This document shows positions 4,001-31,518 of a stretch of 32,314 nt of DNA, piece after piece (the stretch's first letter is position 1; every line of letters begins with the position of its first letter). The position numbers and the translations under genes were made by a program. The notes under the pieces are model-generated. The model saw only the letters and a program-made list of their open reading frames with translations, did no database searches and was not told where the DNA came from. This DNA is from an uncultured Clostridia bacterium (lineage in GTDB: Bacteria; Bacillota; Clostridia; Christensenellales; UBA1242): NCBI GenBank assembly GCA_944383275.1, contig CALWOV010000010.1:1-32314 (forward strand). Direction: 5' to 3'.

Positions 4001-4428
4001 GCACAATAACAGATAGTTTTGCATCAGGCACTATTCATGCAAGTGCTGGGGATGTAGAAAATAAGAATGGTATTGCTATTGCAAGAGGTTACAGGTCTTA
4101 TGCTGGTGGATTAATAGGTTATGGCGAAACAGTTGAAATTTCTAATAGTTATGCTGAAGGATTGGTTTTTTCATTATTACAAACCAGCGTAGGTTTGCAT
4201 AACTCTGCTTATGCTGGTGGATTGGTTGGCTTCGGCACAGGTAGTATTTATAATAGTTATGCAACAAATAATATTTCATCAATAACTTCTTGCACTGATG
4301 AATCGCAACAATATACTGCCTATGCTGGTGGTCTTGTCGGTAATAAAGATTTTGAAGTTGATGAAGATTGCTATTCAACAGGAGATGTTTTTATGTCTGC
4401 CAAAACCATTGTTGAAGGCGTAAGTTAA
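1075..4428 (+). CDS. Surface lipoprotein with InlB-type, Ig-like and GLUG repeats
   Basis: An 1117-residue exported lipoprotein. Residues 1-23 are a signal peptide ending in the lipobox FSG|C, so Cys24 is the predicted lipidation site. Roughly six Listeria-Bacteroides/InlB B-type repeats follow (about 27-98, 197-258, 258-332, 335-402, 406-515, 519-587), recognisable by YHLDGG, GYxFDGWY and LYAKW patterns. One or two Ig-like segments span about 588-740. Six GLUG-type repeats (AGGLVG or SGGLIG at about 900, 932, 967, 1009, 1047 and 1085) run to the C-terminus. Such proteins are extracellular adhesion or binding proteins; no enzyme motif is seen. The protein stops about 20 residues after the last GLUG core, within a repeat, so it may be naturally short or truncated. 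Start ATG 1075 has an AAAAGGTG site. The gene has its own terminator. Confidence 0.85.
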   Translation: MKSKNILFTLIMCLFTCGIIFSGCAKFEYKLNFVVDDEIYYTINTSGNEAISLPANPTKDGYNFDGWYWDEGTWLREFTANSLLNEPLSSDMKVYAKWSDEHTLKGTDAKFLNFTQVNSTTYETAVSNSTNLLNFSEIVEVANKSSWLLCLDIYATQNIPSKIATLNEGGNTYYVLVSAETGDVKLYTLNIRRKPLYEVSFDTIGQNGLESITVEEGEIIEKPTAPEKEGYTFVDWSFDFSNPITSSMQVSAIYQANKYNIIYHSSYNDNIIKQEVKYDASISLNDEIFTYNGYKIIGWESEINGETNTYLPTENLVYKFTNDIELFAVWEMVDYKITYHLESGINVNNPVTYTIEDTIILNDAAKAYYNFEGWYLDEELNNPITQINEGTFGDVDLYAKFSPITYRITYHLDGGVNGDNPATYNVESGDIWLEDASKNGYKFVGWNSYDYFNYIIKLELEPDYSINLRLTKAQDKNSYIDEVIQGAQDGEFVMIGVNAIPSGCYGDIELYAIYELIDYNINYHLDGGINTYNPVAYNIEDETITLNAPVKEGYSFDGWYKDDEFTEPIKQITAGSFGILNLYAKWIEYDIDISYDENKTDISEEDELTSELFNATAVDTDGNVLPVLITNITGIMNAGTTIELELKAQGLYNTEITKNIFVKVYGKPNITFNRELYYLYVNENVKDFISAVDDFGNELNITIQKISGDFDLAGVVIFTATAQNNAGITSTETIYLSVLSESQAIIALYNSKDEYIDYKIVELNSDYVLTPATYWFDEENNQYTDAEGNSLIQITTKGLIKLYSYDYIITNADSLLYYMNNEIYRDGKIILLSNINLSNAQIKGISNFSGMFEGNNHRISFFELTSAYNMGFFNSTENATIKNLTLENSEIDKTTSAETFAGMLIGYAKSTEVINCITHGSVFVDTNANNVSGGLIGYAENCNISNSYSRCGVAAHGGISSTTAYSGGLVGHAINSTITDSFASGTIHASAGDVENKNGIAIARGYRSYAGGLIGYGETVEISNSYAEGLVFSLLQTSVGLHNSAYAGGLVGFGTGSIYNSYATNNISSITSCTDESQQYTAYAGGLVGNKDFEVDEDCYSTGDVFMSAKTIVEGVS

Positions 4429-9070: not shown

Positions 9071-9350
9071 ACTTTTCAATACAAGTTAAGTAATGTTTTA
9101 AATTAAAAACAACTTTTAATTATAATGTATAAAAACAAGCACAAGGTCGCAATCTTTTGAAACTAGCAGAAAAAAGATAGTGGAATAAACTGTTTCCACA
9201 TTTTTTTATATTAGTTTAAAAAATGCTTAACTAATATTACTTGTTTTTTGTTTTTATTAATATTAATAAATCGTAAAAAAATATATATAGTAATTGATTT
9301 TTAGCGATATAGTATAAAAAATTAGTAATATAATAGTATTTTTTTGTTAT
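9071..9350 (+). repeat. Upstream copy of imperfect direct repeat flanking the 9564 gene
   Basis: Non-coding DNA that aligns with 12496-12690 along nearly its whole length. Shared stretches include ACTTTT..AT..AAGTTAAGTA, AATTATAA.GTA, AAAACAAGCA, CTTGTTTTTT, ATTAAT.AATC, ATATATA and AATATAAAAAATTA-like runs. Relative to the other copy it carries an extra ~95 bases (about 9141-9235) placed in the loop of the shared AAAACAAG/CTTGTTTT hairpin. The extra segment contains the element listed at 9151-9220. From about 9350 to the promoter at 9482 I see only AT-rich sequence. Confidence 0.65.
9151..9220 (+). repeat. Hairpin element, copy 1
   Basis: Begins AATCTTTTGAAACTAG and ends TTTTTTATATTAGTTTAAAAAA. 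Nested pairing: outer AAACTA (9160-9165) with TAGTTT (9212-9217), middle A-run (9170-9175) with T-run (9201-9207), inner GTGGAA (9180-9185) with TTCCAC (9194-9199). A second copy at 21644-21711 keeps the flanks and outer stem but has a different inner stem that also pairs. This pattern points to selection on structure (RNA or DNA). It lies about 345 bases upstream of a lipoprotein gene. Confidence 0.6.
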
Positions 9351-9481
9351 TAATAAAATTTAATTATAATTAATTACTTAAATATAAAATTAATTTTACA
9401 AAATTATTTAATTCTTATAAATTTTTAATATTGATACATACTAAGATTATAGACTAAAGTAAATTAATTCTAAACAAATGC

Positions 9482-9510
9482 TTGACATATGGGGGTAGGA
9501 GTTTGATAAA
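9482..9510 (+). promoter_or_regulatory. Promoter of the 9564 lipoprotein gene
   Basis: TTGACA at 9482-9487, a 17-base spacer and GATAAA at 9505-9510 (TAAAAT overlaps two bases later). The spacer includes GGGGGTAGGAG, striking in this AT-rich DNA. The promoter at 31519 has a comparable purine-rich spacer and a similar TTGAT..AAAATTA end. Confidence 0.65.
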
Positions 9511-9563
9511 ATTAATCTAAAGCACATTGACTTGATAGAATATTATTAGATAAGGAGAAACAA

Positions 9564-12446
9564 ATGAAAAAATTTAAATCACTTTTTACTAGAAACATTA
9601 TGTTCGCTGTTTTTTCTGCAGTTCTACTTGCAACCTTTGGAATATTTTTGGTAGGTTGTGGAGAAAAAGGTGAAGATGGTAGTAAATGGATAACCGGCAC
9701 AGATATGCCAACCACAGAAGTTGGTGTTAATGGAGATATGTATCTTGATACAGATGATTATGTGTTATATCAAAAAGCAAATAATCAATGGCAAGTAGTT
9801 ATGAATAACTTTGGTAAAGGCGAAGTTGTCGAAGGTAATAAATGGTTTACTGGAACAAACACACCGGCTGTTGAATTTGGAGCAAATGGAGATATGTATA
9901 TTGACACCGATGACTATATTCTTTATCAAAAAACAGATGGCCAATGGATTGTTGCGATAAGTGATTTTGGTAAGGGCGAAGAAGCAGAAGCAACTAAATG
10001 GATAACTGGAATATTATCTCCTGCAACTGATTTAGGTTCAGATGGTGATATGTATTTAGACACAGATGATTACATTTTGTATCAAAAAGAAAATGGGGTA
10101 TGGAAAACCGTTATTGAAGATTTTGGCAAGGGCGAAATTGGCGCAAATGGTCAAGATGGAAAAGATGGTGCTAAATGGTTAACTGGGGAAGATGCTCCAA
10201 CAGAAGATCTTGGTGTAAATGGTGATTTATATATAGATACAAAAAACTATGTTTTATATCAAAAATCTGATAATATATGGTCAATTCTTATTGTAGATTT
10301 TGGTAAAGGTTTTGACGATACAGCGTTTCAAAATAAAATTTCCGAATTAGAAGAAAAAATTAATTCTGGGAAAATAGATGTAGAAAGACTATCTTCTTAT
10401 CAAAATGAAGTTATATATGATAAAACTAATTTAATTTCAGAAGAGTTTACTTGGGAAGATAACAGTTATATTAATTATCGTAATGGTGTGCTTTTGTCTC
10501 CAAATGAGATCTATATCTCATCTGGAACATATATACCTGTTGAGCCAGAAAAAAATTATGTGTTTTTTTGTAATAAAACGGTTTTATATTTTTATCATTA
10601 TGCATTTTATGATGAAGGTTTTGGGTATATATCAGGTTCAAACGAAATGACTAACATTTTAAAAACGCCAGAAAATGCTGCTTATGTTAGATTTTCAATA
10701 CACAAAACAGGTTCTAAAGTTACATTTGAAGAATTTATAGTAAGTGAACTTGAGTTTTACAATCAAAATTCTACAATATATTCAGCACCACAGCAAATTG
10801 CAGTTATTCAAGGAATTAATGCTAATGATACTTTAATTGATGGATCTATATCAGTTGAAAAATGCGAATTTTTTGATAAATATAGTTCTCCTAACTTAAT
10901 TCAACCGGGAAAAGTTTATGATGGTTATTTTATGGGTACAACGTCACCCAATTTAGCAACAAATGCTACATACACAGTAATGACTGAAATTCCGGTGGTA
11001 GAAGGTCAAATTTTAAATGTTTGGCAAGGATCCTTTACTAAAGCATCAATGAGATTTGTTACACAATTTGATGAAAATTTTAATTTAATTAGTCGTCCAG
11101 CTACTAATAATGAAAATGTTAATATAACAGATTTCACTGTTCCTATAGGAACAAAATATGTTGCGATTACAATCTACTCATCGGCTTGGAATGGAACAGA
11201 AAAAGTTCAAGTTCAATGTAGTATTGATGGACTTTATTTAGGAAAATATTATGAGCCAGGGGTTCCTATTTATAAATTAAATGGAAACTATTATGATATG
11301 GTTGCAGAGCAAGCACCACTTCATGTTTATCTTCCAGACGAAATATGTGTTGCTGAAGGTATGACAATAGAATTGTATAATTCACAAATTTGCCTTGAAT
11401 ATGAAGATTATAATTTTCAATGGTTGGCTTCTGGATTTGGTAGACCATATGAAAGAAAATTTAGTATAACAGGAACAGAAAATTTGACTGGGCAAACAAA
11501 GGTATTAACTTTGAATTTATTTGATGATAATTTAAATATCAAATATACTGCCTCTTGCACAGTAAAATTTGTTTCAGATGTCATCGACACTGAACAACTT
11601 ATCATTCCTATTGGCGATAGTTTGACAAACAACAAGGCTTGGCTTACTAAGGTAAACGAATATTCTAATGGCAAAATCAAATTCCGTGGAACGCAAGGAA
11701 CTATGGATAAAACAGATACTAAAACTATGTCCCATGAAGGAAGGAGTGGTGCTACGACTGGGTGGTATAATTCAGGCACTTCAAAATATGATTTTAATCC
11801 AACAAACTCAACTTTAGAAGTAAAAGAAGATGAAAATGGACAATATACAGAAAATCCATTTTGGAATCCGACAACTGATGCTTTTGATTTTGATTATTAT
11901 TGCAATAGTAAACAAGATGGTGGTGCTGGATATTTTCAAGATGAAAATGCTCAAGAAATAAGTATAAACCCAACAGGTGTGCAAATTTATTTAGGAACAA
12001 ATGGTATTAGTCTAGATTCTACATCTTCGGTAAATAACATAAAAACACTTATCGATAACATTAGAAAATCATCAAAAGGTGCAACTATTCCTATTTATGT
12101 TGTAAACACTTTATTCCGTCCAAATCAAATTTTTTCAACTAATAATGATGGATATACGACAAATGATTCTGGGGAGTTTGGTTTTAGGGCAAATATGAAA
12201 GTTATGAATTTGGAAATTGGACTTTATCAAGCATTAAATGATTATAAAAATGTTTTCTTTGTTCCAGTTGCTGCAACACACGACAGTGAATATAATTATC
12301 CTTACGAGGAAGTTCCTGTAAATCCACACAGCACTGAAAAATTTAAACAATATACCGATTGTGTTCACCCAACAACTGCTGGTTATTATCAGATGGCAGA
12401 CATAATGTTCAGCACAATTGCAGCACATTATAAAGATAATATTTAA
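9564..12446 (+). CDS. Lipoprotein with four 47-residue repeats and C-terminal SGNH/GDSL esterase domain
   Basis: A 960-residue exported lipoprotein. The signal peptide ends in LVG|C (Cys32). Four 47-residue repeats follow at 41-87, 93-139, 145-191 and about 204-250, with the pattern KWxTG...P...G.NGDMYxDTDDYxLYQK...W...FGKGE. Linkers between repeats are 5, 5 and 12 residues, the last with short collagen-like GxxG runs. The middle (about 250-680) looks beta-rich and may hold carbohydrate-binding-like modules. The C-terminal ~280 residues are an SGNH hydrolase: GDS with Ser686 (block I), GTNG with Asn813 (block III) and D932-C-V-H935 (block V). The family removes acyl groups from glycans or lipids. 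Start ATG 9564 follows AAGGAGAAACAA. The gene is bracketed by repeated non-coding DNA and has its own promoter and terminator. The substrate is unknown. Confidence 0.85.
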   Translation: MKKFKSLFTRNIMFAVFSAVLLATFGIFLVGCGEKGEDGSKWITGTDMPTTEVGVNGDMYLDTDDYVLYQKANNQWQVVMNNFGKGEVVEGNKWFTGTNTPAVEFGANGDMYIDTDDYILYQKTDGQWIVAISDFGKGEEAEATKWITGILSPATDLGSDGDMYLDTDDYILYQKENGVWKTVIEDFGKGEIGANGQDGKDGAKWLTGEDAPTEDLGVNGDLYIDTKNYVLYQKSDNIWSILIVDFGKGFDDTAFQNKISELEEKINSGKIDVERLSSYQNEVIYDKTNLISEEFTWEDNSYINYRNGVLLSPNEIYISSGTYIPVEPEKNYVFFCNKTVLYFYHYAFYDEGFGYISGSNEMTNILKTPENAAYVRFSIHKTGSKVTFEEFIVSELEFYNQNSTIYSAPQQIAVIQGINANDTLIDGSISVEKCEFFDKYSSPNLIQPGKVYDGYFMGTTSPNLATNATYTVMTEIPVVEGQILNVWQGSFTKASMRFVTQFDENFNLISRPATNNENVNITDFTVPIGTKYVAITIYSSAWNGTEKVQVQCSIDGLYLGKYYEPGVPIYKLNGNYYDMVAEQAPLHVYLPDEICVAEGMTIELYNSQICLEYEDYNFQWLASGFGRPYERKFSITGTENLTGQTKVLTLNLFDDNLNIKYTASCTVKFVSDVIDTEQLIIPIGDSLTNNKAWLTKVNEYSNGKIKFRGTQGTMDKTDTKTMSHEGRSGATTGWYNSGTSKYDFNPTNSTLEVKEDENGQYTENPFWNPTTDAFDFDYYCNSKQDGGAGYFQDENAQEISINPTGVQIYLGTNGISLDSTSSVNNIKTLIDNIRKSSKGATIPIYVVNTLFRPNQIFSTNNDGYTTNDSGEFGFRANMKVMNLEIGLYQALNDYKNVFFVPVAATHDSEYNYPYEEVPVNPHSTEKFKQYTDCVHPTTAGYYQMADIMFSTIAAHYKDNI

Positions 12447-12495
12447 TAATAATATTATATCTTAAATTATTTTTAAAAAATTAAATTATAAATTC

Positions 12496-12690
12496 ACTTT
12501 TAAATCTAAGTTAAGTATTAATTAAAATTAAAAGTAAATTTAATTATAAAGTAATAAAACAAGCATAATATATTGCTTGTTTTTTATTTTAATTATTAAT
12601 TAATCAAAAAACATATATAAAATATATATATTTTTGCAGTTAAATATAAAAAATTAAGCATATAATTGCAATTTTTGTAACTATTTTATA
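12496..12690 (+). repeat. Downstream copy of imperfect direct repeat flanking the 9564 gene
   Basis: Aligns with 9071-9350 minus the inserted hairpin segment. It includes a working-looking terminator (12556-12590). The rest of the gap to the next gene (12691-12848) is AT-rich, with only a weak inverted repeat ATAAAAC/GTTTTAT at 12811-12840 that might end the minus-strand gene. Confidence 0.65.
12556..12590 (+). terminator. Terminator after the 9564 gene
   Basis: AAAACAAGCA (12556-12565), 8-base loop, TGCTTGTTTT (12574-12583), followed by TTATTTT. It lies inside the downstream direct repeat. Confidence 0.8.
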
Positions 12691-12848
12691 ATTAATAATT
12701 GCCATAAATAATTAATAAATATATAACTTTTTTAAAAATTTATAAATTATCTATATGTAAATAAGAATAATCTATAAATAATTTTAAGTTATATAAACAG
12801 TGCACAATTTATAAAACATAAATCATTTAACTAGTTTTATTTTTAATG

Positions 12849-13346
12849 TTAAGGCTTTATAATTTCAATTTCTAAATTCATAGTTTTTGCCATTTGAATG
12901 GTTTGCTTTGTTATTCCATTTTTACCATTGTAAACGGCTATTATTTTTGAAGAATTTTCTAACATATACTTTTTGCATTTTGCAATACAATCGTTATAAT
13001 AAAAGGTGTTTGAAATAATGCTAACTTTGTCTGCTTGCATTTGAATGTTTTGATATCTTAAAATATTTTCGTCATACCAGTTCTGACTTTGATTAAGGCA
13101 CGGTATTGCACACTCTAATGTTAAATTGGGATACTTTGCTTTAAGTTCTAAAACTAATTCAGCAGCAAGCATTTCAACGCCAAGTGAAAGACTGGTTATA
13201 AAATGGTTATATCCATTTTTAATAGATTTCTCAATTTTATTTTTAAATCTGTGCTTGAAAATTTTAAATCTAATTTTAGATTGTGAATAACCCCAAGGCA
13301 ATGATTTTGGGTGATGCCCCACAAAACAACAAGTTTTATTTTGCAT
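12849..13346 (-). CDS. SLOG/DUF1273-like family protein
   Basis: A 165-residue protein resembling the SLOG (DprA/LOG-like Rossmann) group typified by DUF1273/YpsA. It has an N-terminal CCFVGHHP, LPWGY, then FITSLSLGVEMLAAELVLEL (66-85), LECAIPC (97-103) and a C-terminal nucleotide-fold segment IIAVYNGKNG. Family members are thought to bind nucleotide-derived ligands; a specific function is not established. The usual GHRP motif reads GHHP. The start follows AAGGAG on the minus strand, with a good promoter. It is divergent from a XRE-type regulator, which might control it, though no shared operator was recognised. Confidence 0.75.
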   Translation of the reverse strand: MQNKTCCFVGHHPKSLPWGYSQSKIRFKIFKHRFKNKIEKSIKNGYNHFITSLSLGVEMLAAELVLELKAKYPNLTLECAIPCLNQSQNWYDENILRYQNIQMQADKVSIISNTFYYNDCIAKCKKYMLENSSKIIAVYNGKNGITKQTIQMAKTMNLEIEIIKP

Positions 13347-13370
13347 CTTAAAACTCCTTATAGTGCAATA

Positions 13371-13399
13371 ATTATAGAAGATTTGCGTTAAATAGTCAA
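13371..13399 (-). promoter_or_regulatory. Promoter of the SLOG-like gene
   Basis: Minus strand: TTGACT (13399-13394), 17-base spacer, TATAAT (13376-13371), about 25 bases before the start codon. Confidence 0.75.
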
Positions 13400-13432
13400 T
13401 TATAATTAAGTAATGTTATATATTGTCGTGAA

Positions 13433-13461
13433 TTAAAACAAATATAATTGTGAAGTATAAT
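13433..13461 (+). promoter_or_regulatory. Possible promoter of the XRE regulator gene
   Basis: A perfect TATAAT at 13456-13461 with only a weak TTAAAA 17 bases upstream (13433-13438). Confidence 0.35.
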
Positions 13462-13498
13462 AGTTAATAATGGTTGAGTAAAATTCAAGGAGTTTTGA

Positions 13499-13816
13499 AT
13501 GGATATTTTTGATAAAATTGACAAACTTAGGGTAAATCGTGGTTGGACAATATATAAGTTGGCACAGGAATCAGGGCTTTCGCAACAAACAATTCACCAG
13601 TGGTTTGATAATCATTCCACCCCAACAATAGCAGCAATACAGGCTGTTTGTGAAGCGTTTGGAATTACAGTTGCTGAATTCTTTTCAGAAAAAGAACTTA
13701 TAGAAGCAACAGATGAACTTAAAAAATTATATAACGATTGGTGTTGCCTTACAAAAGACGAACAAACTTCAGTAAAGTTAATTATTGAAAACTATATAAA
13801 AAACAAACAAAAATAA
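13499..13816 (+). CDS. XRE-family helix-turn-helix transcriptional regulator
   Basis: A 105-residue protein. Residues about 6-62 form a Cro/C1-type HTH: WTIYKLAQESGLSQQTIHQW covers helices 2 and 3, followed by the family's PTIAAIQAVCEAFGITVAEFF. The C-terminal ~40 residues are charged and helical, ending KNKQK, and may dimerise. Start ATG 13499 follows CAAGGAG. It is divergent from the SLOG-like gene and 93 bases before the hydrolase start. Targets are unknown; autoregulation is common for this class but nothing here proves it. Confidence 0.85.
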   Translation: MDIFDKIDKLRVNRGWTIYKLAQESGLSQQTIHQWFDNHSTPTIAAIQAVCEAFGITVAEFFSEKELIEATDELKKLYNDWCCLTKDEQTSVKLIIENYIKNKQK

Positions 13817-13874
13817 TTTAAATTTTATTTTTAGTTTATAAAATTTTGTATTTTGTTTAATTTACTTCTAGCAT

Positions 13875-13903
13875 TTGTAAATCATAATTTATTTTGTTAT
13901 AAT
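13875..13903 (+). promoter_or_regulatory. Promoter giving an apparently leaderless hydrolase mRNA
   Basis: TTGTAA at 13875-13880, 17-base spacer, TATAAT at 13898-13903. Transcription would be expected to start at about 13910, which is the A of the ATG. No ribosome-binding site lies between the -10 box and this ATG. Confidence 0.6.
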
Positions 13904-13909
13904 TTTTAT

Positions 13910-14701
13910 ATGGAAAAGTTGCTTAAAATTAACAAAGTTAATTTAAATGTCCAAGAAAATGTGGTTGGCACTGATTGTGCTGTTTTAATTGTTCACGGAA
14001 TTTCGGAACATATTGGTAAATATCAGTGTTTAGTGCAATCGTTGAATAAAAATAATATAAGCACATTTGCTGTTGATTTGCGTGGGCACGGTAAAAGTGG
14101 TGGCAAACGGGGAGATATAAGAAGATTTAGCACTTTTGTTAAAGATGTTTGCGAACTTTTGCATTATATTAAACAAAATTATAACTTCAAAAAAGTTGGA
14201 TTATTTGGTCATTCAATGGGGGGACTTATATCTGCAAGTTGTGCAAGCGTTGAAAATGTTGATTTTTTAATTCTTTCTAACCCTGTGGTATATCTTCCAA
14301 AAAAATTTAGGGCAATAAAGTTTATGCCGTTTCGTTTGTTTCCTTTTGTTAGAATTGATAAAAAACTTATAGAAAGTAAACAGCAACAAGAACAAAGCAA
14401 AAAAGATAGCTTAGTTCTTAAAAATTTTACTATTAGACTTGTTGGCAATATGTTTTGTTCAGGTGTAAGAAACTTAAATAAAAAGTTAAATATAACCTGT
14501 CCAACACTTATGATGATTGGTGATAACGATGGTTTACTAAATCAACAATTTAAAAGCAAAGAGTTTTTTGATAAAATTAATACTAAAAATAAAACTTATA
14601 AAGTTTATAATGCTAAACATTTACTGTTTGATGGAGTTAATACTCAAGATAGAGTAAATGATATTATAGACTGGCTAAATTTATCAGTTCTCAACTACTA
14701 A
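13910..14701 (+). CDS. Alpha/beta hydrolase, monoacylglycerol lipase-like
   Basis: A 263-residue serine hydrolase of the monoacylglycerol lipase / lysophospholipase type. Visible are VHGISEH (28-34, oxyanion region), DLRGHGKSGG (56-65), the nucleophile elbow GHSMGG with Ser102, Asp207 in GDNDG and His237 in AKHLLFDG, giving a full triad. There is no signal peptide, so it is probably cytoplasmic or membrane-peripheral. An in-frame ATG at 13853 would add 19 hydrophobic residues, but a consensus promoter lies inside that extension, so I place the start at ATG 13910. This implies leaderless translation. It probably cleaves acyl esters of glycerides or lysophospholipids; the exact substrate is not readable. 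Confidence 0.82.
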   Translation: MEKLLKINKVNLNVQENVVGTDCAVLIVHGISEHIGKYQCLVQSLNKNNISTFAVDLRGHGKSGGKRGDIRRFSTFVKDVCELLHYIKQNYNFKKVGLFGHSMGGLISASCASVENVDFLILSNPVVYLPKKFRAIKFMPFRLFPFVRIDKKLIESKQQQEQSKKDSLVLKNFTIRLVGNMFCSGVRNLNKKLNITCPTLMMIGDNDGLLNQQFKSKEFFDKINTKNKTYKVYNAKHLLFDGVNTQDRVNDIIDWLNLSVLNY

Positions 14702-14941
14702 AACATTTAATTTTTACAGTAAAATTAAAAATATATTTAAGAAAAAAGTTGATTAAAAGTTAAAATTAATTAATATATAATAATCAAAATGGCAATTATT
14801 TATTTTTTAAAAATATATATAATGATATTCATTATTTTATAAAATATTTTGCAAAAATATAAAATTTTTTTTAAAAAAATATATTATACTTGTAAAAATT
14901 AGTCACAAAGTTGCATTTTTAAGATACTAAAAGGATAAAAA

Positions 14942-15283
14942 ATGAAAGGATTAATTATAAAAAAACACTGGTTAGAACTTATATTTCAAGGTAAAAAAAT
15001 TTGGGAAATAAGGGGTAGCAAGACTAACATTCGTGGAAAAATTGAACTTATTGAAAGTGGAAGTGGTAAAGTTGTTGGTGAATGCTGTTTAGTTGATTGC
15101 ATAAGTCTTAATTTAGAAAATTATGCTAGTAATAAAAAATTGCATCAAATAGATGATGCAAATGTTTTACCTTATAAAAAAACTTACGCGTGGGTTTTAA
15201 GCAATGCAAAAAAATATGAAATTCCACGACCTTATAAGCACCCTAATGGTGCAATTATTTGGGTTAATTTAGATAAGTGCTGA
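14942..15283 (+). CDS. ASCH domain protein
   Basis: A 113-residue single-domain protein of the ASCH (PUA-like beta-barrel) family. It shows the N-terminal KGLIIKKHWLELIFQGKKIWEIRG, then LIESGSGKVVGECCLVDC, and near the end LPYKKTYAWVLSNAKKYE. ASCH proteins are predicted RNA-binding or nucleotide-processing proteins; some bacterial members hydrolyse N4-acetylcytidine. No partner gene is evident. Start ATG 14942 follows AAAAGGATAAAA. A -10-like TATACT lies at 14885-14890. It ends in TGA, which shows TGA is a stop codon in this organism. Confidence 0.8.
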   Translation: MKGLIIKKHWLELIFQGKKIWEIRGSKTNIRGKIELIESGSGKVVGECCLVDCISLNLENYASNKKLHQIDDANVLPYKKTYAWVLSNAKKYEIPRPYKHPNGAIIWVNLDKC

Positions 15284-15380
15284 TTTTTATTTTATTTATT
15301 GAAAGTTTATTTGTTAGTGCATATAGAACTCCATTAAATAAAACTATGTTTAATAAAATTATAAAAAATTTTAATTTTTA

Positions 15381-16508
15381 TTACTCATAATTAGTATTTA
15401 ACGGTATTTTATTTTTCTTATGTTCTTGTTTATATTGAGTTTTACATTCTTTCCAAAGTTGAAATATTAGTCTTAATGAATTTAAAACAAATTCTTGTGA
15501 TTCTTTATCAAGCATTTTAAAACGTTTTTTGGCCTTTCTTATAAAAGTTATGCTTTTCAAAAAAAGTTGATTTACTTGCCAATCTTTACCCATAAGGTCA
15601 AATGCAAGATTAACAAACTTTAACCGTTGTTCTTCATTAAATGCCTCAAGCCATAATTTAACAAATTTTTCAAATATTTGTGAAACTTTGTTGTTTTGAA
15701 AAATATATTTAAAATCACCTTTTTTGGTAACTTTCCAATTGAATGGGTCGTGCTGGAACAAAAAAACTCCATAACAATCAACTACTTTATAATCGGGAAT
15801 GTGGTGCATTGCAACCCCAACAAGAGATTCCTTTACAATAGTTTTATCAAGCTTAAATGCAATTTCATTATATTGTGCAGAGTTATAATAGTTGGTTTTA
15901 AAACCTGGCCCATCGTGGTCAAAAATTTTAATAATTCGATTTTTAATTTCTTGTGAACAAAATAAAGACGCATATAAGGCAAGATTTCCACCTTTACTGT
16001 GTCCACCTATAAAAATTTTTTTGTTTATAAGTGATGCAACTTTATTTAGATAACTTAAACTTTCCAAGTGAGATGGTATGGTTTCAAGAAACGACATATT
16101 AAAATCTTCTTTCCAACCAACAAATGTAAGGTCTGTTCCACGATATGCTATATAACAAAAATCTTCAAAAATAAAAGTTATTGCTGAAAATTGAATCTCG
16201 GCTTGCATATTCCAATGATTTACATAATAATTTATTTTCATTGTGTTAAAACGACTGCTTTTTTTAATTAATTTTATTAATTTTTTATTATTTCGTTTTG
16301 CTAAAGTATCTTTTGTAAGCATACGAAAGTTTTGTTTGGAAAAAAATTCTAAGTCACAATCACTTTGCAAGTTTTCAATTCCACCCACAAAATCTTGAAA
16401 ATCTATATATGCTAGCTGACTTAAAATTAAACTATCAACACTGTTAAATGGGTGCTGACTGAAATTTAAGTTTCCATAATGTTTTAAATAATAAAATAAA
16501 TTTTTCAT
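15381..16508 (-). CDS. DUF2974 (Mbeg1-like) alpha/beta hydrolase
   Basis: A 375-residue predicted lipase-like protein. Family marks are the N-terminal FNSVDSLILSQLAYIDF, FCYIAYRGTDLTFVGWKEDF (a lipase-3-like RGT segment) and the nucleophile elbow GGHSKGGNLALYAS, followed by FDHDGPGF. The DUF2974 family has a class 3 lipase-type fold; its biological substrate is not established. There is no signal peptide. The start lies behind AAAGAGA on the minus strand, and TATAAT at 16560-16555 could be its -10 box. It appears monocistronic. The C-terminal ~100 residues are basic and helical. Confidence 0.8.
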   Translation of the reverse strand: MKNLFYYLKHYGNLNFSQHPFNSVDSLILSQLAYIDFQDFVGGIENLQSDCDLEFFSKQNFRMLTKDTLAKRNNKKLIKLIKKSSRFNTMKINYYVNHWNMQAEIQFSAITFIFEDFCYIAYRGTDLTFVGWKEDFNMSFLETIPSHLESLSYLNKVASLINKKIFIGGHSKGGNLALYASLFCSQEIKNRIIKIFDHDGPGFKTNYYNSAQYNEIAFKLDKTIVKESLVGVAMHHIPDYKVVDCYGVFLFQHDPFNWKVTKKGDFKYIFQNNKVSQIFEKFVKLWLEAFNEEQRLKFVNLAFDLMGKDWQVNQLFLKSITFIRKAKKRFKMLDKESQEFVLNSLRLIFQLWKECKTQYKQEHKKNKIPLNTNYE

Positions 16509-16667
16509 AGCGTCTCTTTATTAATTTAATTAAAAATAAACATCTTTATTTTTGATTATAAATTATTCTAGTAAAAGAATAACACAAAATTTTAACTTTA
16601 TAAAGGAAAATTAAAAAATTGTTTATTTTTTTATTAAAAACTGTTAATTTAATATCTAACTAAAACA

Positions 16668-16696
16668 AAAAAACTGCAAATATTTTGCAGTTTTTT
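16668..16696 (-). terminator. Terminator of the small membrane protein gene
   Basis: A perfect 13-bp stem AAAAAACTGCAAA/TTTGCAGTTTTTT (16668-16680 and 16684-16696) with a 3-base loop. Its symmetry would also let it act on the plus strand. Confidence 0.85.
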
Positions 16697-16708
16697 AAAA
16701 TTTTTTAT

Positions 16709-17215
16709 TTATGCTTTTCTGTTTGCAAGATAACCAAGTAAGCCCAATACAACACCACCAATAATAAGCATATAGAAACCTATTCCTGGAATGAATGAAG
16801 TAGCAGCGATACCTGATGTAGCAAAGAAAATAATTCCACAAATTAATGCAACAACTGTTAAAAGTAAAGCAATTATTGATAAAAATTTGTTAATTTTTGC
16901 AAACATATTGTTTTTGCCCATTTTTGTGAATTGCAAAACAAACATTATTACATAGATTGCTGCAACAACCAAAAGGGCAACAGCCATAATGTCAACAATT
17001 AATGCACAAGCAGAATTAAATTCTTGACCTGTAAGTTGATAAATAGTTTCTATTGTTGACCAATCGGTAAAGATAGTATATCCTGTTTGATTGGTAATTG
17101 AGCCAATTTCTTCAACTCTTGTGTAGATAGCAAGGAACATTGGCAAAATTAAAAGAACAAGCCCAACTGAAGCAAGTAAATTAAACAAAAGATTGCTTGA
17201 TGATGATTTTTTCAT
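16709..17215 (-). CDS. Small four-helix membrane protein, unknown function
   Basis: A 168-residue protein with four predicted transmembrane helices: about 10-30, 70-95, 103-130 and 140-163. An extracytoplasmic loop of ~40 residues lies between the first two. It ends in a Gly-rich helix and a basic tail (NRKA), a layout common in small Clostridial membrane proteins. I recognise no family. Two in-frame ATGs exist (17221 and 17215). The strong AAAGGGGG site lies 8 bases before 17215 but only 2 before 17221, so 17215 is preferred. It is a single-gene unit with its own promoter and terminator. Confidence 0.7.
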   Translation of the reverse strand: MKKSSSSNLLFNLLASVGLVLLILPMFLAIYTRVEEIGSITNQTGYTIFTDWSTIETIYQLTGQEFNSACALIVDIMAVALLVVAAIYVIMFVLQFTKMGKNNMFAKINKFLSIIALLLTVVALICGIIFFATSGIAATSFIPGIGFYMLIIGGVVLGLLGYLANRKA

Positions 17216-17237
17216 AAACATAACCCCCTTTATTTTG

Positions 17238-17267
17238 ATTATATTAAATAAAAGTTAATTAAGTCAA
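17238..17267 (-). promoter_or_regulatory. Promoter of the small membrane protein gene
   Basis: Minus strand: TTGACT (17267-17262), 18-base spacer, TATAAT (17243-17238). The predicted leader is very short, with the ribosome-binding site near its 5' end. Confidence 0.7.
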
Positions 17268-17466
17268 TAAAATAGCAAAAATTAAGTCCTACAAAAAACC
17301 ATAAATGTAGATTTAACCGTTTAAAATGTAAACAAAATTGTATTAAATAAAAATTTTTTCGAAAAAATTTAATTTTAAATTAATTTTAATATAAAATTTT
17401 GATTTATAATTTTTGTATGAAATTTTTTAATTTGCAAATAATACTAAAAAATTAAAAGGAGATTTT

Positions 17467-18075
17467 ATGAAATTAAAAGATAGTCAAACCTATTTAAACT
17501 TGGCAAGAGCCTATGCTTCCGAGTGTCAGGCTAAAACAAGATACGAATTTATAGAATATGGAGCAAGATATAATAATTATAAGAATATTGCAGATATTAT
17601 TGATGAAATTGTATATCAAGAATTTAATCACGCAAGAATGTTCTATACATTTATTCAAAAAGGGGAAGATAAGCAAATTGATAATATTCATATTGACGCA
17701 GGTTTTCCTTTTAGAGAAAAATGGGATTTACAAGAAAATTTAAGACTTGCAAGTGAAGATGAAGCGCACGAAGAAGAAATGTATGATGAGTTTGCAAAAA
17801 CAGCAAACGAAGAAGGCTTTCCTGAAATCGCACAACTATTTTTAGATACAAAAGAAGTTGAAAATTATCACAGGCAAATATTTGCAGAACTTTATGACCA
17901 AATGAAAAACAACACTTTATATGTAAAAGATGAACCCGTCACTTGGATTTGTGGTGATTGTGGGTATATGGCAACAGGAAAGGTTGCTTTTGATGAATGC
18001 CCACTTTGCAAAGCAAAGCGTGGTTCAATAAAACTTATATTAAATGCAAAAATGTTAAACAATAAATACTGTTAA
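17467..18075 (+). CDS. Rubrerythrin
   Basis: A 202-residue non-haem iron protein that reduces hydrogen peroxide in anaerobes. The N-terminal four-helix di-iron domain shows Glu19, Glu52-x-x-His55, Glu99/Glu102 and Glu132-x-x-His135 as probable ligands. A C-terminal rubredoxin-like domain has CGDC (Cys162, Cys165) and CPLC (Cys178, Cys181) for one iron. The length is close to typical for the family. Start ATG 17467 follows AAAAGGAGATTTT. A TATAAT lies at 17405-17410, but I found no clear PerR box. It supports an anaerobic, oxidative-stress-managing host. It is followed by its own terminator. Confidence 0.92.
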   Translation: MKLKDSQTYLNLARAYASECQAKTRYEFIEYGARYNNYKNIADIIDEIVYQEFNHARMFYTFIQKGEDKQIDNIHIDAGFPFREKWDLQENLRLASEDEAHEEEMYDEFAKTANEEGFPEIAQLFLDTKEVENYHRQIFAELYDQMKNNTLYVKDEPVTWICGDCGYMATGKVAFDECPLCKAKRGSIKLILNAKMLNNKYC

Positions 18076-18186
18076 TGGTAATTAAATTTTCAAAATATGC
18101 ATTTATATAAAAATAAATTTTAAAAACTATTTAAAACTAAAATTGTAAATAAGAAAAAAGCTTGCAACCTTTAAAATTTGCAAAAT

Positions 18187-18218
18187 AAAAAGATAATGAG
18201 CAATACATTATCTTTTTT
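18187..18218 (+). terminator. Terminator after rubrerythrin
   Basis: AAAAGATAATG (18188-18198) pairs with CATTATCTTTT (18206-18216) around a 7-base loop, ending in a T-run. Confidence 0.8.
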
Positions 18219-18326
18219 GTTAATTTAAAATTGATTTGTTAAATTTGCTTTTTATTAATACTAATTAAAATCAATTTATGATAAACTTTATAACACTTTT
18301 TGAATTTAATCAATTTAATTAAATAA

Positions 18327-19337
18327 TTATAAAAAACTTGTGGCTTGTTTTTTATTTTCTTCTACTACATTATAAAATTCATTATCTAATTTTTCAATTT
18401 TTCGCATATCCATTTTATTTGTTGGTTTTAGTTTATAAGATTGTAAACGATTATCAATTAAAATTGGTATAATATTTGGAATATTTGAAGGAATAATTTC
18501 AAGTTTAATTTCTTTTCTATCGTAATCTTTTTGTATTAATTGCAATTTATCTTGATTTTCTGGATTGTAAAGTAAATCGTTCATAACTTCTGTAAGATAA
18601 TCTCTAATAAATACTTTTTTATTTTTAAATGGAACTTTAGTGTTTTCGAATTGCTTTCTGTTAATTAAGTTTGCTTGAATAATATACTCATCAACCAAAC
18701 TTCTTATATTAGTTACATTTGGTGTTGAAGTGTTCAATTCTTGCTCTAACATATAAGCCAAAGTGTTATACATTACAAAGTTTTCTTCAAAAGAAAATTC
18801 TTGATAATATATGCCACCATTATCTTTAAATTTTTCAGTATATGTTTGTTTAATTAGTGGTCTTATTTTATTTTCTTTTATTAAATTCTCACAAAATTTT
18901 GTTGTATAATTGGGGTTAGCATAAGTTTTAAGCGTAGTTCCTTTTCCATTAAGATAGTCAAAAATCATAGCGTGCAAACTTTCGTGAACTAAAACTCTTT
19001 TTGCGTGCGTTTCTGATTGTAGTTTATTGCTTGCAAGAAAAATCTCATCAGGGCAATCTCTGTCAAACTGTCCTTCTAGTTTTATCGCTTCTTCTGAAAC
19101 TATATCTTTTAAAAGTGGGGTTAATTGTTGAACAACATAATCAAGTTCTGTGTTTGTAATATCAGGGTAAAATGCTTTATATTTTTTAATTTGTTGTTCT
19201 ATATATCTGTTAAATTCATTTTGTTGATTATAATTTTCAATTCTTAATTTTCGCTTTGCAAACCCAAAAGTTTTTGCAAGTTCACTTTTAATATCATTCA
19301 TATTATTAATAAATTCTTCAGATAATTCTATTGGCAT
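18327..19337 (-). CDS. Unrecognised protein with HExxH metallopeptidase-like motif
   Basis: A 336-residue cytoplasmic-looking protein with no signal peptide or membrane helix. It has HESLH (His118, Glu119, His122) in a hydrophobic helix, RVLVHESLHAMIFDYL, which matches the zincin active-site pattern. A later acidic helix, EFSFEENFVMYNTLAYMLEQE, could supply the third zinc ligand. The N-terminal 100 residues are charged and helical. I cannot place it in a named peptidase family. The start follows AAAAAGGAG, with a strong minus-strand promoter. It is divergent from the 614-residue gene at 19604; the 266-base gap between start codons holds back-to-back promoters. A protease, or an inactive peptidase fold, is plausible. 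Confidence 0.65.
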   Translation of the reverse strand: MPIELSEEFINNMNDIKSELAKTFGFAKRKLRIENYNQQNEFNRYIEQQIKKYKAFYPDITNTELDYVVQQLTPLLKDIVSEEAIKLEGQFDRDCPDEIFLASNKLQSETHAKRVLVHESLHAMIFDYLNGKGTTLKTYANPNYTTKFCENLIKENKIRPLIKQTYTEKFKDNGGIYYQEFSFEENFVMYNTLAYMLEQELNTSTPNVTNIRSLVDEYIIQANLINRKQFENTKVPFKNKKVFIRDYLTEVMNDLLYNPENQDKLQLIQKDYDRKEIKLEIIPSNIPNIIPILIDNRLQSYKLKPTNKMDMRKIEKLDNEFYNVVEENKKQATSFL

Positions 19338-19362
19338 AAAAACTCCTTTTTTAATACATTTA

Positions 19363-19391
19363 AGTATATCACAAAACAGTTAAAAAGTCAA
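19363..19391 (-). promoter_or_regulatory. Promoter of the HESLH gene
   Basis: Minus strand: TTGACT (19391-19386), 17-base spacer, TATACT (19368-19363). Confidence 0.7.
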
Positions 19392-19546
19392 TTTTAATAT
19401 TTTTAGATGTTAAGAAACTATTATGTTTTTTTAGTAGCATTTTAGTTAAGCGCCTTTTAAAATTACAAGTTTTTTATACTAATTTTTAAGGTAATTTTTT
19501 TATTAATTTATACTTCTAATAAGGGTATTTTTAAAGGGATTGGGTA

Positions 19547-19575
19547 TTTACAAAAGTGCGAATTTATGGTATAAT
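19547..19575 (+). promoter_or_regulatory. Promoter of the 614-residue gene
   Basis: TTTACA at 19547-19552, 17-base spacer, TATAAT at 19570-19575. The predicted transcript start near 19582 excludes the in-frame ATG at 19556 and supports ATG 19604. Confidence 0.7.
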
Positions 19576-19603
19576 TAAAGAAATATTTATAGGGGAGAAA
19601 TAT

Positions 19604-21448
19604 ATGGAAAAACAACAGCAAAAACCATTGTTTGATGAAGAGTATATAAATAAAATAAAAGAGCAGGCAATGTTGCCAGAAGTTGGGCTTTCAGACTATA
19701 AACTATGTTATGTAACAACAGCAAGTGATGTGGATTTTGTTAAAAGGCAAATCAATCATTCAGTAAAAAATTCTAAGGCTTCAGACAGAAATTTAAACGA
19801 CCTAGTGTTTACTAAAGTATTTAATCATAATGGCGAAAAATATATGTTCTATTTTGTAAAAAATGACATTTTAGAACAAGATACAAATACAATAAGTAAA
19901 ATTGCTAACTTTAATTCGTTAATCTATTATAATATTTTAACAGGTGGTTTTGGTTCTAAAAGGCAAAAAACCGAAAAAATTTTACCAGAATATATAGAAA
20001 TGGCAAAACGAACTTGTTTTATTGATGCTAATGGGAATATTCAGCCATTAAGCAGAATACCTGTTGCATCAGGAACAATTAAAGACGGAGATTTTAATAA
20101 AAACACTTTTATAGAATGCTTTAAAACAGCAAGAAATAAGTGCGCAGATAGTATAAGTGTTTCAAGAAAAACCAATGGAAATAATTTTGAAATATTCTTA
20201 GATTTATCACCTGAATTTTGCAAATATTGGGTAAATAAGGAAATAAAGGGATCTTTTATAGGTTATTTAGATCAGGCAATAAATGAAATAAGGTTAGACC
20301 TTGACCAAATAAAAAATGCTTGTGAAGCATATAATTTACTTGCTGCAGATGGAACAATTAATGGTCAAGTAACTAAAGAAAATCACGCTTATATTTCTAA
20401 AAAAAATATAAACAGTTATTGTCTTATTGGAAATCCAAATTTTGCGAAACAAACTTTATTAGATGATTATGAAAAATTGTTTAAATTTGGGAATGCATAT
20501 CCTATAAGTGATTTATTGTTTTTGCCATCAAATAAAGTTTTAGATATTTTGCTACAAGTTTGTAATGATAAAATAGAAAACGACAAGAAATTTAAAACTC
20601 AAGAAGAAGTTATTGAAGAAGATTTTCGTTTCTTTCAATTTTTAAAACAAACAGACCCTAAGTTTCAAAAGGATAATAGAACATATAGTCAGTTGGAGGC
20701 AACAAGAGAGCAAGACCTTTATGCAACCTATGTTGGAAGAATGTTTAGAGAAGGAATAAGATATAAAACTGAAGCATATGCTTATCAAAAAGAATTGCGT
20801 GATAAAATGAATTATCGTGATGAAAAGCATGGTAATAAACTCGTTGAAATGAAAAATGCTTGGGATTTGGGCTATGATAATGAACAATATAAACAAATGA
20901 AGAAAGCATTTGGAGAGTTGGGAACAAAAATATATGATAGAGTATATTATGTTAAATTTTTAAACTATTTACTTGAAACATATAAGCCAACAGGTGCGTT
21001 ATTTGATTTAACAGAGTTAAGCGATATGTTCGGCGACCCTAAAAGAGAAGCTGCGACAATAGAGTATTCACGAAGAGCGACAGAACAAGATAAAGAATTT
21101 GCAAAATATTTAATGCAAACAACAACAGTTGATGATTATATTTCACTAATTCAACGATTTGATGGAATTATAGATGTTCAAGTTGGAAAAAATTCTAATG
21201 GAAGATTTGTTCAAAGCACTTTGTCTGTTAACCCATATACCAAAAATGAAATTTATGATAAAATAGGTGATTTAATAACACCTTGGAGAATGGTCAGAAA
21301 CAGTGAAACAAATAAAGAAAAAATATATGTAGGTGCTGACCCACTAGCATTTGCATCAAAACAAAGACGTGAAGTATTAAACAAAATATTACAGCAAGCA
21401 GATAGAAGTGTAACGCAACAAGATGAAGATTGCCCAACAAGTTTTTAA
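19604..21448 (+). CDS. Large unrecognised cytoplasmic protein (614 residues)
   Basis: No family is recognised. The protein is hydrophilic, without signal peptide or transmembrane helix. It has a mixed alpha/beta N-terminal half (for example LCYVTTASDVDFVKRQI and NGEKYMFYFVKND) and a strongly helical, charged part from about 320 to 500 (DFRFFQFLKQTDP, RMFREGIRYKTEAYAYQKEL). It ends in a polar tail DEDCPTSF. There is no Walker, nuclease or HTH motif I can defend. AGGGGAG at 19591-19597 precedes ATG 19604; an earlier in-frame ATG at 19556 lies upstream of the predicted transcript start. It is divergent from the HESLH protein and has its own terminator. Pairing with that gene suggests shared control, but this is inference. 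Confidence 0.75.
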   Translation: MEKQQQKPLFDEEYINKIKEQAMLPEVGLSDYKLCYVTTASDVDFVKRQINHSVKNSKASDRNLNDLVFTKVFNHNGEKYMFYFVKNDILEQDTNTISKIANFNSLIYYNILTGGFGSKRQKTEKILPEYIEMAKRTCFIDANGNIQPLSRIPVASGTIKDGDFNKNTFIECFKTARNKCADSISVSRKTNGNNFEIFLDLSPEFCKYWVNKEIKGSFIGYLDQAINEIRLDLDQIKNACEAYNLLAADGTINGQVTKENHAYISKKNINSYCLIGNPNFAKQTLLDDYEKLFKFGNAYPISDLLFLPSNKVLDILLQVCNDKIENDKKFKTQEEVIEEDFRFFQFLKQTDPKFQKDNRTYSQLEATREQDLYATYVGRMFREGIRYKTEAYAYQKELRDKMNYRDEKHGNKLVEMKNAWDLGYDNEQYKQMKKAFGELGTKIYDRVYYVKFLNYLLETYKPTGALFDLTELSDMFGDPKREAATIEYSRRATEQDKEFAKYLMQTTTVDDYISLIQRFDGIIDVQVGKNSNGRFVQSTLSVNPYTKNEIYDKIGDLITPWRMVRNSETNKEKIYVGADPLAFASKQRREVLNKILQQADRSVTQQDEDCPTSF

Positions 21449-21485
21449 CAATAACTTAAAGATTAAAAACTTTTAAAGTGATAAT

Positions 21486-21523
21486 AAAAAAGAATTTTAT
21501 CGTATTTGATAAAGTTCTTTTTT
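21486..21523 (+). terminator. Terminator of the 614-residue gene
   Basis: AAAAAAGAA-T-TTTATC (21486-21501) pairs with GATAAA-G-TTCTTTTTT (21508-21523), with a single T-G position in the stem. Confidence 0.85.
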
Positions 21524-21643
21524 GTTAGTTTTTAAAAATAATAGTTAATGTTAGTAAATTAAAAACCTACAAAATATAAAAGATATTGTATTGAATAAAC
21601 AAAATCATTTTATTTAGTTAAAAAATATTAGGTTAATACTCAT

Positions 21644-21711
21644 AATCTTTGAAACTAGAAAAAAATAATGGAAAAAATTTTTACCATTATTTTTATATTA
21701 GTTTAAAAACA
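21644..21711 (+). repeat. Hairpin element, copy 2
   Basis: Same flanks as copy 1: AATCTTTGAAACTAG at the left, TTTTATATTAGTTTAAAAA at the right. The outer stem is AAACTA (21652-21657) with TAGTTT (21699-21704). The inner stem AATAATGG (21664-21671) with CCATTATT (21684-21691) differs in sequence from copy 1 but still pairs. It is about 240 bases upstream of a lipoprotein gene and lies after a separate terminator, so it is not needed to end the previous gene. The remaining gap up to 21889 is AT-rich, with a short GACT-AA-AGTC hairpin and T-run at about 21716-21731. Confidence 0.6.
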
Positions 21712-21889
21712 TACAGACTAAAGTCGTTTTTTATTTTTGCAAAAAAATTATAAAGTTTGCAGATTAATTTTTTAATAACTATTTATCATTATTACGCATA
21801 AATATATTTTATATTCAAAAAATATATACATAATATTTAATTACTGTTTTATGGTATATTAGTTTAATTTTAAAAACTTTGATTTTTGC

Positions 21890-31250: not shown

Positions 31251-31340
31251 AACTTGTTTTAATTTAATATAAATTGTTATTTATAAACTAGATTAATATT
31301 TTATCAACAAACAAAAATAATCAATTTTAATAACATAGAA

Positions 31341-31377
31341 AAGGAACTTTATATTAAATTATAAAGTTCTTTTTTTA
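31341..31377 (+). terminator. Terminator of the ABC operon
   Basis: GGAACTTTATA (31343-31353) pairs with TATAAAGTTCT (31360-31370), with a 6-base loop and a 7-base T-run. Confidence 0.85.
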
Positions 31378-31518
31378 TATAAATTTAGTTTAAAAACATT
31401 GTAATGAAACGCTATAAAATATAAAAATTTGTAAATATTAATTAATATATGGCTTCTATACTAACCCCAAAAAGATTAAATAAGATAGCGTTATTATTAA
31501 AAAACAGTTAGCAAACAG

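Follow-up and report, generated by a model that had tools for sequence, protein, structure and literature searches.

Staphylococcal cassette chromosome (SCC) elements combine a serine recombinase with inverted-repeat ends, include cassettes that lack a recombinase but can be mobilized in trans, and use one chromosomal site. Integration at many sites is described for Cp36, a multi-targeting large serine recombinase whose target consists of an A-rich side, an AA core and a T-rich side (Durrant et al., 2022, PMC10083194), and the relaxase-bearing IME_Rho_tet is found largely in a single type of open reading frame, MAFF2 (PMC12904643). Dispersed terminator-like hairpins with AAAA/TTTT ends, located mostly between convergent genes, are known from Streptococcus pneumoniae as SPRITE repeats (PMC3049150). 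The window analyzed here, a stretch of 32,314 nt (positions 1 to 32,314 of contig CALWOV010000010.1) from an uncultured Clostridia bacterium of the Christensenellales, contains short dispersed hairpins. These probably represent the minimal, non-autonomous form of a mobile gene-cassette family that inserts into terminators, with a large serine recombinase as its most likely driver. The family is seemingly undescribed, as no description was found in the open-access literature.

Element ends and target sites

All members, of which the smallest measure about 100 bp and the largest 8.3 kb and which carry none to five genes (one to five in the larger members of 0.7-8.3 kb), have the same two ends: an AA core, 10 nt, a 14-bp inverted repeat and a terminator-like hairpin. 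The inverted repeat (TTTTGAAACTAGCA), placed 10 nt inside the AA core, marks the element boundary, and the right end reads TGCTAGTTTCAAAA, 10 nt and AA. At 45 of 52 ends, the inverted repeat is followed directly inward by a terminator-like hairpin of 10 bp or more; such a hairpin occurs at 5 of 26 element centres and in 3 of 26 shuffled ends. Outward from the two ends, the flanks supply the two halves of a single hairpin, one bearing an A-run and the other a T-run. They re-form a single hairpin in 25 of the 26 larger elements (L429 fails), with a perfect stem that averages 10.0 bp over all 26, against 1.75 +/- 0.57 bp with shuffled partners (maximum 3.9 in 500 rounds), and a mean duplex energy of -14.2, against -6.4 after shuffling. 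This outermost stem differs at every locus, matching the flanking host terminator. Judged from these flanks, it is a host intrinsic terminator that has been split in its loop, where the element sits.

The gene context was determined for 27 elements, of which 17 have convergent, 8 tandem and 2 divergent neighbouring genes, and 25 adjoin at least one gene's 3' end. It follows that gene 3' ends determine where an element lies, and that the association of the window copies with lipoprotein genes is incidental. The first-pass annotation had located two hairpins 240-350 bases upstream of lipoprotein starts, and the distances measured are 344 and 237 nt. As a general rule this placement finds no support, as the neighbours of the own-genome copies on contigs C6, C11, C13 and C20 are not lipoproteins; one neighbour on C4 matches a loose lipobox regular expression only.

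All junctions share AA alone, and no target duplication beyond AA was detected. Tandem units, present in several genomes, are joined via a single AA (GACTAAGGTT), as at L240 9011-9107, L121 3239-3590 and L125 2854-2970. The joined ends, a presumed junction that is seen at these tandem copies, form an imperfect palindrome of about 50 bp (14-bp repeat, 10 nt, AA, 10 nt, 14-bp repeat). Such palindromes are typical of serine-integrase attP sites.

The putative recombinase

The 8.3-kb element L456 encodes type I restriction-modification and a 500-aa large serine recombinase, P0001, with resolvase, recombinase and zinc-ribbon domains (PF00239, PF07508, PF13408). Homologues of P0001 were taken from 297 genomes. 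Where identity to P0001 is 64% or more, 16 of 20 retrieved loci have the end motif 70-665 bp past the recombinase gene; at 54% or less, none of 10 loci has it. Genomes with this recombinase also possess the right-end motif more often than expected (11/21, P=0.010), which is only mild support because the count includes G300 and G140, whose recombinase-bearing element supplies its own right-end match. Based on this linkage, a large serine recombinase is the putative enzyme of the family and most likely moves it. A single serine recombinase shared by all genomes was considered and rejected: the enzymes retrieved initially are diverse, and linkage to the ends is confined to one clade. A recombinase gene is missing from most members, and the window's own copies, which encode none, are non-autonomous.

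Copies in the window and in its own genome

The alignment of own and related copies gives the following order of parts: a variable outermost stem, AA, a left box similar to GGTTAAACCA, TTTTGAAACTAGCA, an internal hairpin flanked by an A-run and a T-run, TATTAGTTTCAAAA, a right box similar to ATAATAGACT, AA, and the second half of the outermost stem. In the mini-elements, a single hairpin, the "inner stem" of the first-pass annotation, serves both ends. The features on the window are:

9131-9248, + strand: mini-element copy 1 with its target (profile E 3e-19, 83 bits; arms duplex -7.9)
9131-9139, + strand: copy 1, left arm of the host terminator, AAAAACAAG
9143-9144, + strand: copy 1, left AA core
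9145-9154, + strand: copy 1, left box, GGTCGCAATC
9155-9168, + strand: copy 1, left inverted repeat, TTTTGAAACTAGCA
9170-9207, + strand: copy 1, internal hairpin
9209-9221, + strand: copy 1, right inverted repeat, TATTAGTTTAAAA
9222-9234, + strand: copy 1, right box up to the AA core
9240-9248, + strand: copy 1, right arm of the host terminator, CTTGTTTTT
21620-21733, + strand: mini-element copy 2 (profile E 1.7e-15, 66 bits)
21620-21625, + strand: copy 2, A-run
21648-21658, + strand: copy 2, left inverted repeat, TTTGAAACTAG
21659-21694, + strand: copy 2, internal hairpin
21694-21709, + strand: copy 2, right inverted repeat, TATATTAGTTTAAAAA
21717-21722, + strand: copy 2, GACTAA
21727-21733, + strand: copy 2, T-run
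18157-18252, + strand: degenerate mini-element copy 3, between convergent genes (profile E 4.7e-6), with outer arms AAAAAAGC...GCTTTTT and inner hairpin AAAAGATAATG...CATTATCTTTTTT
31337-31400, + strand: possible relic, hairpin AAAAGGAACTTTATA...TATAAAGTTCTTTTTTT followed by TTTAGTTTAAAAACAT, with unrecognizable ends (84% over 42 nt, E 1.3e-4)
21460-21570, + strand: possible relic just upstream of copy 2, a terminator hairpin with TTTTTTGTTAGTTTTTAAAA after it (sequence inspection)

The two sites described initially, with their shared outer sequence and pairing and their differing inner stems, can be read directly in the sequence. Both lie at the coordinates given for them. The element extends further than first described, over about 9131-9248, with AAAAACAAG/CTTGTTTTT as outermost stem. 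In copy 2, the pairing between the inner arms of the host terminator has been lost. A third candidate (31285-31400) is a partial match that the profile misses, and at most a relic; neither possible relic, at 31337-31400 or at 21460-21570, was recovered by the profile.

Internal hairpins fall into types that include AAAAGGAACTnTAC.../...GTAnAGTTCCTTTT and AAAGATAGTGG.../...CCACTATCTTT. Both window copies belong to the second type and are homologous in that stem, in which they differ by compensating changes (GTGG/CCAC to ATGG/CCAT). Across 28 copies, the two helices pair in 84% of cells, against 42-62% after sliding by 1-3 columns, and the covariation score is equalled or beaten by only 3 of 500 shuffles; compensatory changes occur within an internal-hairpin type. 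RNAalifold returned no consensus structure for the first eight copies because their inner stems vary in length.

A strict hairpin pattern has one match in the window and none in 100 shuffles, well outside chance expectation, and blastn matches copy 1 to copy 2 at E=1e-10. The first-pass annotation had proposed a search for additional copies in the genome, and these were found by blastn and by a profile. About ten clear copies are dispersed over contigs C4, C6, C10, C11, C13 and C20 of the 1.06-Mb genome, in addition to partial or degenerate ones. The profile was built from eight own-genome copies, and all eight strong matches (E 1e-12 or better) are its input sequences; independent support for these comes from blastn and from relatives. 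Its new match in the window, absent from the first-pass annotation, is the degenerate copy 3 (matched over 18158-18255, E=5e-6), alongside partial copies. With a length of 90-130 bp, the own-genome mini-copies are short, non-coding, inverted-repeat, non-autonomous and dispersed, as miniature inverted-repeat transposable elements (MITEs) are. The initial proposal of a MITE-like mobile element was right in kind but too small in scale, as the hairpins would be the minimal form of a gene-cassette family with kilobase-sized members.

Distribution and horizontal movement

Within the window's family, model R2 (E<=1e-4) detected the element in 64 of the 197 genomes tested, spread over 22 of 42 genera, and its copy number varies strongly between genomes. 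Outside the family but within the same order, model R1 gave one weak match among 24 genomes. The right-end motif is present in 81 of 297 genomes, with no matches for a reversed control pattern. In 12 genomes from seven genera, an identical left end follows wholly different left flanks; two of these genomes (G189 and G196) have one site in common, and many contigs break off 50-57 bp inside this end, as expected for a recent repeat. Four complete or nearly complete cassettes from three genera carry the same ATP-binding cassette (ABC) permease and ATPase genes with about 99% DNA identity; their presence at differing sites implies that the family moves. Near-identical cassettes at different terminators in different genera thus indicate horizontal movement. 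The own genome also holds the near-identical, apparently recent right end of a cassette at a contig end (C6:52478-52568).

Scans of IMG/VR with two end patterns gave no matches, and plasmid and phage collections returned just weak matches to the ABC genes plus one 67-nt match. The latter is a non-coding stretch of the ABC cassette (L195 2180-2246) with 87% identity to a human faecal phage genome (MT835493.1:30520-30585). Two observations concern the surroundings of this cassette. In G196 and G189 it adjoins a nucleotide-pyrophosphatase-like gene (L185 2466-3083), which may itself have been acquired, since only 3 of 17 genomes of its genus possess it. In G087, the C-terminal fragment of a tyrosine recombinase (L231 3321-3515) lies immediately outside the right end.

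Cargo

Single-gene cassettes encode YdjC deacetylase, transglutaminase-like, metallo-beta-lactamase-fold, nudix, short-chain dehydrogenase (SDR), GDSL hydrolase, methyltransferase, AAA ATPase and DUF4932 proteins as well as membrane proteins (the latter by inspection). The cargo of larger cassettes includes type I restriction-modification (HsdM, HsdS, HsdR), an Eco47II-type restriction-modification system with an AAA ATPase, a cytosine methyltransferase with a type II restriction enzyme, and a GmrSD-type protein. The cassettes appear to carry genes, including anti-phage systems, between species. Cassettes of unrelated cargo have in common a module of about 250-300 bp near the right end, with a short open reading frame (MHFNLDNKEYSLTLENR...), which could be a promoter, regulatory or recombination-accessory region:

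L426 1532-1831 (element coordinates): right-end-proximal module
L240 8047-8346: right-end-proximal module
L185 5233-5472: right-end-proximal module
L455 939-1178 (element coordinates): right-end-proximal module

Alternative explanations

A structured non-coding RNA or a cis-regulatory leader of the downstream lipoprotein genes, as first considered, would fit the conserved helix with its covarying inner stem and the position 237-344 nt upstream of two lipoprotein genes. This explanation is very unlikely, as the downstream genes are unrelated, the majority of copies lie between convergent genes, and kilobase-sized gene cassettes are bounded by the same ends. In Rfam, the window matches no family at the gathering threshold, and two loci with relatives yield weak matches far under the gathering scores, mostly to eukaryotic families. 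Selection on a folded structure had been suggested as well: pairing is indeed maintained through sequence change, but the internal terminator and the locus-specific, split host terminator explain it without a regulatory RNA fold. A classical MITE mobilized by the DDE transposase of an insertion sequence is improbable. Its short, dispersed, non-coding form, its inverted repeats and its placement at 3' ends, like that of pneumococcal repeats (PMC3049150), agree with the mini-copies; however, the inverted repeats are subterminal, the outer 10 nt differ between the ends, no target duplication beyond AA was seen, and tandem junctions share one AA. In addition, the enzyme linked to the ends is a serine recombinase, and no linked DDE gene was seen in the delimited elements, DDE families not having been searched genome-wide.

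Tyrosine recombinase-moved, integron-like cassettes would account for mostly single-gene, recombinase-free units with foldable ends and occasional tandem copies, and tyrosine recombinases are common. They are nonetheless quite improbable here: the common core is just AA, with the crossover placed mid-palindrome, whereas integrons have it in an R box at the foot of a folded site, and insertions are dispersed, with at most short tandem runs. Tyrosine recombinases, searched with PF00589 only and not with an integron-specific integrase model, do not track the elements, as G028, with complete, recent cassettes, has a fragment only and G006 has none; the linked enzyme, again, is of the serine type. 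Subterminal inverted repeats, a hairpin target and a presumed circle junction also recall IS110/IS1111-type elements, which use a circular intermediate and a guide RNA. This bridge-RNA reading was rejected and has a negligible probability, because PF02371 (DEDD) is absent from all 22 family genomes searched, including the own genus, a set that leaves out the high-copy genomes beyond it.

Several points weigh against a terminator-inserting family that owes its movement to a large serine recombinase. Recombination of attP with attL or attR is not a usual reaction of serine integrases, and the tandem copies therefore need another explanation. The empty-site search gave no orthologous empty site: only 3 of 17 genomes in its genus possess the flanking gene, and nothing like the terminator was present at the distant homologues that were examined. 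The crossover, core length and conservative exchange are consequently deduced from junctions. No recombinase of the P0001 clade and no PF00239 match were found in the window's own genus, although the own genome, only 90% complete, contains at least one apparently recent cassette end, that on C6. Its mini-copies are mostly old. Finally, DUF4368, which is common but not universal in published multi-targeting serine recombinases, was not detected in P0001 (E up to 10).

Proposed mechanism and implications

In the proposed mechanism, an excised circle would join both ends into the attP-like imperfect palindrome with its 2-bp AA core. A large serine recombinase from rare autonomous members would act in trans on the remaining ones and recombine this junction with A-run...AA...T-run sites, i.e. 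intrinsic terminators in these AT-rich genomes. As each end brings its own terminator hairpin, insertion would restore termination of the interrupted gene and insulate the cargo, a role from which it would follow that inner stems still pair while their sequence drifts or is exchanged. The evidence leans towards a dispersed counterpart of the integron, with mostly recombinase-free cassettes of metabolic, transport and restriction genes, a serine recombinase acting in trans, terminator loops as sites, own terminators at both ends, near-neutral capture, many sites per genome and a family-wide range.

Terminators are abundant and their loop is expendable, and a recombinase reading them as DNA would gain many safe landing sites. 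If true, the mechanism would explain how single genes and defence systems are traded among streamlined, ~1-Mb uncultured Clostridia without integrons or typical transposons, and a natural enzyme for integration at many sites, with a defined attP-like end, would be on offer. It also predicts that other orphan terminator-like repeats, e.g. pneumococcal SPRITE, may be what is left of systems of this kind. A further lesson is that a covarying hairpin at a 3' end can pass for a regulatory RNA.

Other features of the window

Three genes of the window were noted in addition. One encodes a 960-aa lipoprotein (9564-12446) with four near-identical N-terminal repeats (KWITGTDxPxTExGxNGDMYLDTDDYxLYQK) and, by eye, an SGNH-type hydrolase-like C-terminal part. 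Another encodes a 1117-aa surface lipoprotein (1075-4428) with six Listeria-Bacteroides (InlB-type) repeats and a GLUG motif. The translation of the third (26638-29142) is, by inspection, an 834-aa fusion of a multi-pass membrane domain and an ABC-type ATPase domain.

Comparison with known systems

The closest likeness in target choice is to Cp36, likewise a large serine recombinase with many targets per genome and an A-rich/AA/T-rich target motif. The flanks of the 26 elements fit this motif, and where the genome is AT-rich such a motif amounts to an intrinsic terminator. Here, however, the targets are the loops of intrinsic terminators, the ends carry their own terminator hairpins, most members lack the enzyme and carry one or a few genes, and DUF4368 was not detected. 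The family is not placed in a Cp36-like clade, and the resemblance is one of target choice. IME_Rho_tet also combines a serine recombinase with inverted-repeat ends (PMC12904643); in contrast to it and to SCC, insertions are dispersed over terminators and the delimited elements lack a relaxase. Integron cassettes are similar in being small and recombinase-free, with foldable sites, defence and metabolic cargo and horizontal spread, but the present family appears to have no attI platform or ordered array, relies on a putative serine instead of a tyrosine recombinase, and inserts into host terminators. MITEs resemble the window copies as short, non-coding, non-autonomous inverted-repeat units, although the parent here would be a serine-recombinase element instead of a DDE insertion sequence, and target duplication beyond AA was not detected. 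SPRITE repeats, in turn, are dispersed terminator-like hairpins concentrated between convergent genes with AAAA/TTTT ends, as are the copies described here; they have no known enzyme or cargo, and the present family suggests a candidate mechanism for them.

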